From assembly GCA_016190585.1 (NCBI GenBank), contig JACPQH010000081.1, forward strand, positions 1-28,969: DNA of 28,969 nucleotides. Reading direction: 5' to 3'. Below are positions 21,403 through 24,278 of the stretch, piece after piece. Source of the stretch: Chloroflexota bacterium. Lineage in GTDB: Bacteria > Chloroflexota > Dehalococcoidia > Dehalococcoidales > RBG-16-60-22. Made by a program: the position numbers and the translations under genes. Position 1 is the stretch's first letter, and each line of letters begins with the position of its first letter. The notes beneath the pieces are model-generated. The model did no database searches and was not told where the DNA came from. It saw only the letters and a program-made list of their open reading frames with translations.

Positions 21403-21431
21403 TTGACCGGCCCGGGGAAACTTGTTAGAAT
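21403..21431 (+). promoter_or_regulatory. Promoter of nrpR - glutamate synthase
   Basis: TTGACC (21403-21408) and TAGAAT (21426-21431) are separated by 17 bases, each one mismatch from consensus. The predicted start is near 21438, the first base of the GGAA-N6-TTCC operator. Confidence 0.7.
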
Positions 21432-21437
21432 ACCAGG

Positions 21438-21451
21438 GGAAAAAGGTTTCC
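21438..21451 (+). promoter_or_regulatory. NrpR-type operator GGAA-N6-TTCC
   Basis: The 14-base sequence GGAAAAAGGTTTCC fits the NrpR operator described in methanogens (GGAA, six bases, TTCC). It begins six bases after the -10 box and covers the predicted start of the gene that encodes the NrpR homologue itself, a position suited to repression. Confidence 0.7.
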
Positions 21452-21461
21452 TATTGCCACC

Positions 21462-22508
21462 ATGTTCGATAACGCCGACGTAGAACGCAAGGTCCTGGCC
21501 GTCATGAGAATCCTGGGCTCTTCGCAGGAGCCTCTGGGCGCGCGGGTCATCGCCGGCCGGCTCAAGGAGCGCGGCATCGAGCTGGGCGAGCGGGCCGTCC
21601 GCTACCACCTGAAACTGATGGATGAGCGCGGCCTGACCCGGCTTATCGGCCGGCGTGACGGGCGCGTCCTCACCGAAAGAGGCATCGACGAGATAGGCTC
21701 GGCCCGCGTCAAGGACAAGGTCGGCCTGGTCATTTCCAAGATTGAACTCCTGTCGTTCCGCACCAATTTCGACTACCGCAAGCGGGCGGGCTGGGTGCCG
21801 GTCAATATCTCGCTCTTCCCCAGGGAGTCTTTCGGCGAGGCCCTGAAAAAGATGAAGCCGGCGTTCGACGCCGGGCTCTGCGTCAGCAGCCTGGTGGCCG
21901 CCGCCGACGAAGGGGAGAGGCTCGGCGAGCTGGTCGTCCCCCGGGGCAAGAAGGCGCTGGGCACGGTGTGCTCAATCATCATCAACGGCACCCTGCTCAA
22001 GGCTGGCGTGCCCATGGACTCCCGTTTCGGCGGCATCCTCCAGATACGTAACCGGGTGCCCATGCGCTTCGTCGAGCTCATCCATTATTCCGGCTGCTCG
22101 CTGGACCCTTCGGAGATTTTCATCCGCGCCGGTATGACCTCGGTATGCGAGGTGGCGGAAAAAGGGGAAGGCAGGGTGCTGGGCAACTTCCGGGAGATCC
22201 CGGCCATGTGCCGTCCCCTGGCGCAGGATATTATCGAAGGCCTGGGCCAGGCCGGGTTCCGCGGGCTGCTCCTCATGGGCGAGACCAGCGCCAACGTCTG
22301 CGAGGTCACCGTCGAACCGAACAAGGTCGGCCTCGTTCTCCTCGGCGGCCTTAACCCGGTGGCGGCGGCCCGGGAGGCGGGCATCGAAGCGGAGAACCGC
22401 GCCATGAGCACCATCGTTGATTACCGCAGCCTGGTCCGGTTCGAGGAGCTGGCCGGCCTGCCCGGCCTTCCGGTCTCAACGGGCGCCGGCTACTCAAGCG
22501 GAATTTGA
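21462..22508 (+). CDS. nrpR: NrpR-family nitrogen regulator (winged helix plus one NrpR domain)
   Basis: A 348-residue transcription regulator. Residues 1-75 are a winged helix of the NrpR/RNase R type (VERKVLAVMRILGSSQEPLGARVIAGRLKERGIELGERAVRYHLKLMDERGLTRLI). Residues from about 85 to 340 form one NrpR (DUF128) domain, with FDAGLCVSS, GTVCSIIINGTLLKAGVPMDSRFGG and the late VTVEPNKVGLVLLGGLNPVAAAREAGI. In methanogens NrpR represses nitrogen fixation and glutamine synthetase genes and is released by 2-oxoglutarate. Here a matching operator lies on its own promoter, so autoregulation is likely. The downstream glutamate synthase (47-base gap) fits a nitrogen role. The ribosome-binding site is weak. 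Confidence 0.9.
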   Translation: MFDNADVERKVLAVMRILGSSQEPLGARVIAGRLKERGIELGERAVRYHLKLMDERGLTRLIGRRDGRVLTERGIDEIGSARVKDKVGLVISKIELLSFRTNFDYRKRAGWVPVNISLFPRESFGEALKKMKPAFDAGLCVSSLVAAADEGERLGELVVPRGKKALGTVCSIIINGTLLKAGVPMDSRFGGILQIRNRVPMRFVELIHYSGCSLDPSEIFIRAGMTSVCEVAEKGEGRVLGNFREIPAMCRPLAQDIIEGLGQAGFRGLLLMGETSANVCEVTVEPNKVGLVLLGGLNPVAAAREAGIEAENRAMSTIVDYRSLVRFEELAGLPGLPVSTGAGYSSGI

Positions 22509-22555: not shown

Positions 22556-24175
22556 ATGAACCTACAGCGACCCAACTCGAATGACGCCACCAGAACGACC
22601 AACCGTTCCAAGAGCATCGTCCCGGGGAGCGGCCTGTGCAGCCGCTGCCTTGACGGATGCACCGGGAACTGCGAGGTGTTCAAGGCGACCTTCCGCGGCC
22701 GGGAGCTCATCTATCCCGGACCGTTCGGCGAAATCACCGCCGGCGGCGATAAAGAGTACCCGGTAGACTACTCGCACCTCAATATCCAGGGCTACGCCCT
22801 CGGCGCCCGCGGCCTGCCGGCAGGCGTCCAGGGGAACCCGGACAGCGCCATCTTCCCCGCCGTCAACACCGAGACCGAGTACGGCTGGACCCAGAAGGTC
22901 AAAATGAGGGCGCCGGTCTTCACCGGCGCGCTGGGCTCCACCGAGATCGCCCGCAAGAACTGGGAGCATTTCGCGGTAGGCGCGGCCATCGGCGGCGTGA
23001 CGCTGGTCTGCGGCGAGAACGTCTGCGGCATCGACCCCCAGCTCAAGCTCGACGCCAGCGGCAAGGTGGCGGCCTCTCCGGACATGGACCGGCGTATCGA
23101 TGTCTACCGGCGCTATCACCGGGGCTACGGCGAGATACTCGTCCAGATGAATGTCGAGGATACCCGGCTCGGCGTGGCCGAATATGTCAACAAGAAACAC
23201 GGGCTGGAGACCATCGAGCTCAAGTGGGGACAGGGCGCGAAGTGCATCGGCGGCGAGATCAAGGTCAGCAGCCTGGAGCGGGCGCTGGAGCTGCAGCGGC
23301 GCGGCTACATCGTCACCCCGGACCCGTCCAACCCCATCAACCAGTCCTCCTTTAAAGACGGCGCCATCAAGGAGTTCGAGCGGCACAGCCGTCTCGGCTT
23401 CATCGACGAAGACAGCTTCTACGCCGAGGTACAGCGTCTCCGGCGGATCGGCTTCAAGAGGATCACCCTGAAGACCGGCGCCTACAGCCTGCGCGAGCTG
23501 GCCATGGCCATCAAGTGGGGCTCCCAGGCCAATATCGACCTCCTGACGATTGACGGGTCTTCCGGCGGCACCGGCATGAGCCCGTGGCGCATGATGGAGG
23601 AGTGGGGCATCCCCAGCCTTTACCTGCACGCCGCGGCTTACGACTTCTGCCACCGGCTGGCCCAGCGCGGCGAGCGCCCGCCCGATATCGCCTTCGCCGG
23701 CGGCTTCAGCAGCGAGGACGGCGTCTTCAAGGCGCTGGCTCTCGGCGCGCCCTATACCAAAGCGGTGTGCATGGGTCGCGCCCTGATGATACCGGGCATG
23801 GTGGGCAAGAACATCCAGCAGTGGCTCAAGGAAGGCAAGCTGCCCAACACCGTCGGCCAGTTCGGTTCCACGGCCGAGGAGATATTCGTCTGCTGGGAAG
23901 ATGTCAAGGACATCGTCGGGGCGGAGGAGATAAAGAAGCTGCCGCTGGGCGCCATCGGCATCTACAGCTACGTCGAGAAGCTCCGCGTCGGTTTGCAGCA
24001 GCTTATGGCCGGCGCCCGGTGTTTCAGCGTGCCGGTTATCGGCCGCCACGAGCTGATGTCGCTCACCGAGGAGTGCGCCAAGGTCACCGGCATACCCTAC
24101 CTCATGGACGCCTATCGCAAAGAGGCGATAGACATCCTTGACGGGACCACCAGCCGGCGCCTGGCGACGACATAG
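22556..24175 (+). CDS. FMN-binding glutamate synthase-family protein
   Basis: A 539-residue protein built around the FMN-binding synthase domain of GltB (PF01645), which makes glutamate from 2-oxoglutarate and ammonia delivered from glutamine. It has an N-terminal Cys set C28-x2-C31-x3-C35-x3-C39, probably for an Fe-S cluster. The synthase core shows ELKWGQGAKCIGGEIKVSSLERALELQ and the FMN/substrate loop LTIDGSSGGTGMSPWRMMEEWGIPSL. The glutaminase and GXGXG parts of full GltB are absent, as in archaeal-type split enzymes; no separate subunit is in the window, so activity may need partners elsewhere. AAGGAG (22541-22546) precedes the ATG. It is in one transcript with nrpR and ends at a strong terminator. 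Confidence 0.9.
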   Translation: MNLQRPNSNDATRTTNRSKSIVPGSGLCSRCLDGCTGNCEVFKATFRGRELIYPGPFGEITAGGDKEYPVDYSHLNIQGYALGARGLPAGVQGNPDSAIFPAVNTETEYGWTQKVKMRAPVFTGALGSTEIARKNWEHFAVGAAIGGVTLVCGENVCGIDPQLKLDASGKVAASPDMDRRIDVYRRYHRGYGEILVQMNVEDTRLGVAEYVNKKHGLETIELKWGQGAKCIGGEIKVSSLERALELQRRGYIVTPDPSNPINQSSFKDGAIKEFERHSRLGFIDEDSFYAEVQRLRRIGFKRITLKTGAYSLRELAMAIKWGSQANIDLLTIDGSSGGTGMSPWRMMEEWGIPSLYLHAAAYDFCHRLAQRGERPPDIAFAGGFSSEDGVFKALALGAPYTKAVCMGRALMIPGMVGKNIQQWLKEGKLPNTVGQFGSTAEEIFVCWEDVKDIVGAEEIKKLPLGAIGIYSYVEKLRVGLQQLMAGARCFSVPVIGRHELMSLTEECAKVTGIPYLMDAYRKEAIDILDGTTSRRLATT

Positions 24176-24197
24176 AAGAAATCGAACAACCCAGAGT

Positions 24198-24231
24198 GGG
24201 GCCCCGGTCTCAAACCCGGGGCCTCTTTTTT
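24198..24231 (+). terminator. Intrinsic terminator of the nrpR - glutamate synthase operon
   Basis: GGCCCCGG (24200-24207) pairs perfectly with CCGGGGCC (24216-24223) around an 8-base loop, followed by TC and six T residues (24226-24231). It starts 22 bases after the stop codon. Confidence 0.85.
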
Positions 24232-24278
24232 CCCCGTTCCCCATGCCGGCGCCGTTGCCAGCAAAAAATTACGTACGT

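Follow-up and report, generated by a model that had tools for sequence, protein, structure and literature searches.

In archaea such as Methanosarcina mazei, NrpR is described as a 2-oxoglutarate-released repressor of nitrogen genes (PMC11957540, PMC9765008, PMC3087415), which leaves its operator upon binding of 2-oxoglutarate (PMC11957540). Archaeal NrpR binds GGAAN6TTCC, and the list of Methanococcus maripaludis genes with this site in PMC2723118 comprises nif, glnK-amtB and glnA together with two molybdate transporters and an alanine symporter; nrpR is absent from it. The expression of NrpR is not regulated by nitrogen supply, according to PMC9765008. The existence of NrpR homologues in 'certain Bacteria' is already in print (PMC2723118), and no operator or regulon of a bacterial NrpR was found among the literature matches listed, subscription papers being mostly outside their scope. 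Further literature cited comprises PMC8809328, PMC1852104, PMC9295151, PMC8143581, PMC6801745 and PMC6429469.

The window analyzed here is a stretch of 28,969 nucleotides from a Chloroflexota bacterium, in which an NrpR homologue is encoded behind such a palindrome. The NrpR of M. maripaludis belongs to the NRD1_2 family and has an N-terminal HTH, like the protein of the window, and contains two NRD domains, whereas the window protein has one, a layout that resembles NrpRI. M. mazei NrpRII is said to contact general transcription factors. The window site shares the inverted GGAA/TTCC half-sites with M. maripaludis and fits the archaeal consensus, as quoted above, exactly. In contrast to M. maripaludis, where nrpR is missing from the list quoted (PMC2723118), and to the archaeal NrpR that is described as unregulated by nitrogen supply (PMC9765008), the predicted operator lies on nrpR in the window and in many of its relatives; they also differ from M. 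maripaludis in the predicted targets (nrpR, glutamate synthase or glutamate dehydrogenase (GDH), and hisF/hisH), in the sigma70-type promoter and in the presence of a third half-site. We consider it very probable that positions 21438-21458 serve as operator for an NrpR-family repressor, the one whose gene follows directly, which would repress nrpR-glutamate synthase and be released by 2-oxoglutarate. The original prediction of this site was right in essence; its motif was too narrow and the regulon that it expected was wrong.

In bacteria, the GS-GOGAT node is controlled at sigma70 promoters by regulators such as NtcA, GlnR, TnrA and GltC, which act on the same metabolic node and belong to other protein families with other DNA motifs. 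To our knowledge, little work has been done on how Dehalococcoidia and related uncultured anaerobes control their nitrogen metabolism. For such scarcely studied microbes, the analysis provides a predicted regulator together with its DNA site, a regulon of two operons (in relatives) and a simple feedback loop, and thus offers a testable nitrogen control circuit in bacteria.

The promoter and the palindrome in front of nrpR

A GGAA-N6-TTCC palindrome six bases past a TTGACC-17-TAGAAT promoter had been claimed for 21438-21451, and direct reading bears this out (Table 1). A scan of 1.2 kb for TTGACA/TATAAT-like hexamers 16-18 bases apart yielded this one promoter, with 10 of 12 matches, compared with 0.2 in shuffles. 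The transcription start would lie at about 21438, some seven bases past the -10 hexamer. The motif had also been placed on the predicted start of the gene, which is correct for this predicted transcription start; the ATG follows ten bases beyond the operator.

It should be noted that the bare GGAA-N6-TTCC string is no evidence by itself, because it occurs in the window at chance level (one found, 0.55 expected, at least one in 43 of 100 shuffles). The site is nevertheless above chance, since a profile of 71 sites from relatives, from which the window was left out, singles out the place at 21438: its score of 19.69 corresponds to a p value of 1.6e-7 per position (at 63% GC), 0.009 sites this good are expected over the whole window on both strands, and the next best place other than this site scores 8.3.

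Table 1. Features of the nrpR region of the window, which reads TTGACC-17-TAGAAT-ACCAGG-GGAAAAAGGTTTCC-TATTGCC-ACC-ATG at 21403-21476 (direct reading)
Feature	Position	Strand	Remarks
-35 hexamer TTGACC	21403-21408	+	direct reading
-10 hexamer TAGAAT	21426-21431	+	17-base spacer from TTGACC, TG before TAGAAT
sigma70-type promoter TTGACC-17-TG-TAGAAT	21403..21431	+	10/12 consensus matches
ACCAGG between -10 and operator core	21432-21437	+	direct reading
operator core GGAAAAAGGTTTCC, inverted half-sites GGAAA and TTTCC around AAGG	21438..21451	+	predicted transcription start
TATTGCC after operator core	21452-21458	+	followed by ACC, then ATG at 21462
third half-site TTGCC, direct repeat of right half-site, 7 bases downstream	21454..21458	+	
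nrpR homologue, 348 aa	21462..22508	+	HTH_12 (13-78), single NRD1_2 (87-324)
glutamate synthase central-domain-like protein, 539 aa	22556..24175	+	Glu_synthase E 3e-14

The genes that follow had been named as an NrpR homologue and a glutamate synthase, and domain searches agree with both names. The first protein has the two features by which the NrpR family is recognized, an NRD1_2 domain (PF01995, E 8.1e-80, one copy) and an N-terminal winged helix (HTH_12, E 5.5e-20), and it has a relative in the PDB, 3nek (MJ0159, E 8e-22). Residue F2, next to the start, is the same in all 26 sequences that were aligned, and the relatives, where named, belong mostly to Dehalococcoidia and other Chloroflexota. 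NCBIfam gives no family for this protein. An AlphaFold model (mean pLDDT 70-87 in blocks of residues 11-80) was not used as evidence because its mean pLDDT is 56 overall. The second gene follows after a gap of 47 bases and probably forms one operon with nrpR; it was settled as a gene by tblastn, and its product is 84% identical to that of the gene at the same place in a related locus (L007). Antisense to it runs an open frame of 560 codons (22562-24244, minus strand), which looks like a GC-rich shadow frame and not like a gene.

Recurrence of the site at bacterial nrpR genes

The original prediction equated the motif with the methanogen NrpR operator and expected it to be conserved at orthologous nrpR genes. 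Upstream DNA was read at the best 80 of the 166 orthologous loci found (L001-L080). The exact GGAA-N6-TTCC form is present in 10 of 81 nrpR upstream regions (window included; two of the 81 lack usable upstream DNA), so the equation holds for the window itself and not for most relatives, which follow GGNAA-N4-TTNCC with a third half-site. The eight defined positions of this form, GGNAANNNNTTNCC, are matched exactly within 150 bp in 65 of 79 regions (window included; L051 and L067, at contig edges, left out) versus 0.3 in dinucleotide shuffles, and at seven of eight positions in nine further regions, where shuffles give 6.1; these comparisons overstate independence because the sequences are related. 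In the window and in the other regions among the 65, the operator is thus positioned on the promoter of the regulator's own gene. The logo derived from 71 sites is GG[CAT]AAACGGTT[GT]CC. In one locus (L010), a better site is located 195 bases upstream, beyond the 150-base limit.

The expectation of conservation was borne out in Chloroflexota and deltaproteobacterial genomes and failed at more distant genes, as the site was found in 2 of 19 mostly more distant NrpR genes; three of these 19 (L350, L354 and L355) were already among the class loci, leaving 1 of 16 new ones with a site. An exact site is present at the gene in 15 of the 30 class NrpR loci kept, several of which duplicate genes of the L001-L080 set. 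In L281 (ferredoxin-nrpR) and L285, a site and a promoter-like pair are found further upstream. L001, the sister of the window in the tree, has a degenerate copy (seven of eight positions) 19 bases past its -10 hexamer. In a tree of 100 NrpR proteins, the 74 with a site are clustered (16 changes compared with 23.2 after shuffling, and none of 500 shuffles as low); they span Chloroflexota as well as 11 Syntrophaceae and other deltaproteobacterial MAGs that form a nested group, the site recurring at NrpR genes of Chloroflexota, Syntrophaceae, Smithella and other deltaproteobacterial MAGs. Because of the degenerate copy in L001, the counts for the class loci and the distant genes and the clustering in the tree, the autoregulation predicted from this site would be a property of a part of the bacterial NrpR family.

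The claim of a sigma70-type promoter under an NrpR-like operator of the regulator's own gene extends to the relatives: a -35/-10 pair with at least 10 of 12 matches lies in the 60 bases before the operator at 55 of 72 sites (window included), compared with 0.8 in shuffles. The gap between -10 and operator is 1-2 bases at 34 of 69 sites, and six bases in the window, so that the operator covers the predicted transcription start. Additional half-sites are found at fixed distances. A CC at +20/+21, which repeats the right half-site in the same orientation seven bases further on, is present at 45 of 71 nrpR sites and at 17 of 21 sites of a second, ferredoxin-headed operon (no more than 9 and 2, respectively, at any other offset between +15 and +24), and a GG at -6/-5 at 14 of 71 and 10 of 21 sites (other offsets: at most 6 and 1). 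The window contains the right-hand and lacks the left-hand extra half-site. This spacing of seven bases suggests an array that could accommodate more than one NrpR dimer.

Genes with and without the operator

Among 76 loci with enough DNA, the 3.6 kb that follow nrpR encode, on the nrpR strand, glutamate synthase in 37, GDH in 31 and either enzyme in 68; hisF lies there in 42. Families were assigned by Pfam; the names HisF (PF00977) and HisH (class I amidotransferase) are our reading of the sequences. A scan of the loci revealed the same operator before a ferredoxin-like gene in L004, L022 and L046, and a degenerate one in L005. In L004 and L022 this gene heads an operon ferredoxin-hisH-FAD reductase-class II glutaminase (GATase II), the products of which seem to be the remaining components of a glutamate synthase that is split. 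A ferredoxin match was found in 30 of 50 NrpR genomes, the other 20 having no match at E 1e-20; six genomes with only weaker matches (E 1e-21 to 1e-38) were left out, and in 21 of the 24 strong cases an exact operator is present within 160 bases, versus 0.09 in shuffles. The predicted targets would thus be nrpR itself, glutamate synthase or GDH, and HisF/HisH.

In a class sample of 197 genomes, 70 encode NrpR. The site precedes the reductase operon in 14 of 25 usable loci of genomes with NrpR and in 1 of 10 usable loci (of 12) of genomes without it (one-sided Fisher 0.015, kinship not corrected for). Loci of the former kind were fetched from 26 of 35 such genomes, the other nine, eight with a site, having been seen earlier; 10 of the 25 lack the site and one has seven of eight positions. 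In the latter kind, an exact but intragenic match in L310 (score 11.3) was not counted. L315, L316 and L341 were left out as too short. The one genome with a site in which NrpR was not detected (G118, L314) has a perfect GGCAAACGGTTGCC before its ferredoxin operon, perhaps owing to an incomplete assembly, perhaps to another binder.

The predicted enrichment before glnA, amtB and nif did not materialize in 30 NrpR genomes, which are relatives of the window's own genome. None of 19 amt loci has a site near the start, two sites (11.9 and 13.4) falling downstream. For glnA, 30 loci of 40 matches were examined, and no promoter among them has an operator of its own: sites of at least 13.5 are those of neighboring nrpR or ferredoxin operons (L163, L169, L171 and L189), with the exception of a 14.6 site beyond the end of the glnA match in L181, and none of the weaker sites (10-13.4) is upstream. 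In L169 and L171, where the two genes are divergent, the nrpR operator might act on glnA as well. Loci were available for four of five strong nifH-like matches; they have no site close to the promoter, the best site (13.9) lying about 0.85 kb upstream (L192). An archaeal-type nif/glnA/amt regulon is therefore not supported, and the target list familiar from archaea does not apply to these relatives. Amt and glnA may be under a separate regulator.

Two side observations concern amt. The amt promoters of L142, L143, L146, L150, L155 and L157, all from NrpR genomes, lack an NrpR site and contain repeated TGTAACA/TTAACA-like boxes, which we take to resemble PhoB or GlnR-type (OmpR family) sites. 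Further NrpR copies are encoded within a few kb of amt or amt-glnA, on one contig with them, in G003:C26, G004:C118, G005:C41 and G010:C2.

As a means of finding the regulon, the motif led to the second operon. Whole-genome counts gave no clear excess over the control; the evidence thus lies in the position of the sites and not in their number. The core GGNAAACRGTTNCC had 62 sites in 50 genomes compared with 73 for the reversed control, 24 of them in G228 (summed from the table). Of 40 regions fetched around core sites, 17 are nrpR or ferredoxin-operon promoters, 18 lie inside ORFs, and the other five are intergenic (L208, which is terminator-like, L209, L216, L221 and L223). A third-half-site pattern matched in 57 of 197 class genomes (about 80 places listed compared with about 53 in the control), and few of these places look like nrpR operators. 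The pattern GGNAANCNGTTNCC, with 102 matches in 12 genomes compared with 72 for the reversed control (summed from the table), was rejected as too noisy.

Several loci have other genes next to nrpR or under a similar site. In L057 (6001-9844) and L074, an nrpR gene that has a GGCAATAGGTTTCC operator precedes MvhD-like, MetF-like and 4Fe-4S (ferredoxin-)glutamate synthase-like genes, MvhD and MetF being our reading of the sequences, and this NrpR copy is perhaps tied to one-carbon metabolism. In L052, L058 and L068, nrpR-hisF precedes NuoE/NuoF-like genes and a third iron-sulfur gene, after which a glutamate synthase follows in L052 and L068, which may indicate that this operator serves a larger, NAD-linked enzyme. 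In L221 (G232), GGTAAACGGTTTCC is found at about 2380 on the minus strand, after a TTGACT/TATAAT-like pair and before an ORF of about 158 aa, which might be one more target.

A glutamate switch and its alternatives

According to the proposed mechanism, NrpR bound to the operator would cover the transcription start and block sigma70 RNA polymerase, and would thereby repress its own operon, nrpR-(hisF)-glutamate synthase (with GDH in other species), and, in relatives, also the ferredoxin-hisH-FAD reductase-class II glutaminase operon. A rise in 2-oxoglutarate, as expected when nitrogen is scarce, would make NrpR leave the operator and thereby induce glutamate formation, and as the enzyme consumes 2-oxoglutarate, a negative feedback loop would result. 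The sequence, its conservation, the geometry of the promoters, the make-up of the operons, the second target of the relatives and the association of the site with NrpR were observed here, while binding, repression, 2-oxoglutarate as the ligand and occupancy by more than one dimer over half-sites seven bases apart are inferred.

Could a 14-base palindrome have fallen near the start by chance? The frequency of the bare string, the low number of exact GGAA-N6-TTCC forms and the lack of an excess of the core over whole genomes would fit this view. It is strongly contradicted by the conservation in orthologous regions, and the profile, the promoter geometry shared among the sites and the operator at the second operon also speak against it, so that we give it next to no credence. 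A role of the palindrome in RNA, as a leader hairpin, attenuator or translational operator, is highly improbable: although it lies within the predicted leader and a five-pair stem is possible, the 43 nt leader of the window folds with -3.9 kcal/mol (z +0.94, equaled or bettered by 167 of 200 shuffles) and a 63 nt leader with z +0.32 (equaled or bettered by 116 of 200), these two window folds alone bearing on the question because the other three of five stretches were cut inside the operator. In addition, the flanking half-site that is conserved has the orientation of a direct repeat, and 10 of 21 ferredoxin promoters have a half-site before the core, in the -10 region.

The site might also be the operator of another regulator of glutamate synthesis, with NrpR as a mere neighbor gene. 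Binding of NrpR is a prediction, many NrpR genes lack the site, and L314 has it in a genome without detected NrpR; against this, the half-sites are similar to GGAAN6TTCC, the operator of archaeal NrpR, the site accompanies nrpR whatever the partner (glutamate synthase, GDH, NuoEF-like or MvhD-MetF-like), and it tracks the presence of NrpR at the reductase operon, which makes such a regulator quite improbable. It is likewise unlikely that NrpR and its operator are real and that the signal is a redox or other carbon cue instead of nitrogen and 2-oxoglutarate. The NuoE/F-like genes of L052, L058 and L068, the genes behind nrpR in L057 and L074 and the examined glnA, amt and nifH promoters, with no independent operator, would be in accord with such a cue, but the glutamate synthase or GDH found downstream in most loci are users of 2-oxoglutarate by family, and 2-oxoglutarate is the known ligand of archaeal NrpR.

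An NrpR switch released by 2-oxoglutarate would suggest how an archaeal repressor, which faces TBP/TFB promoters in archaea, works over sigma70 promoters with different targets. The balance tips slightly towards a broader evolutionary reading, in which NrpR of two bacterial groups would have given up nitrogen fixation and glutamine synthetase as targets and become a self-limiting switch of glutamate formation (by a split glutamate synthase or GDH) and of the glutamine user HisF/HisH, with arrays of three to four half-sites seven bases apart, two dimers or a tetramer over the sigma70 start, and amt and glnA left to another regulator.

Finally, an FAD oxidoreductase (PF01266) is encoded in or near the nrpR operon of L002, L003, L020, L056 and L066. 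It resembles L-2-hydroxyglutarate oxidase, and a protein of this kind would make 2-oxoglutarate, the presumed ligand of NrpR.
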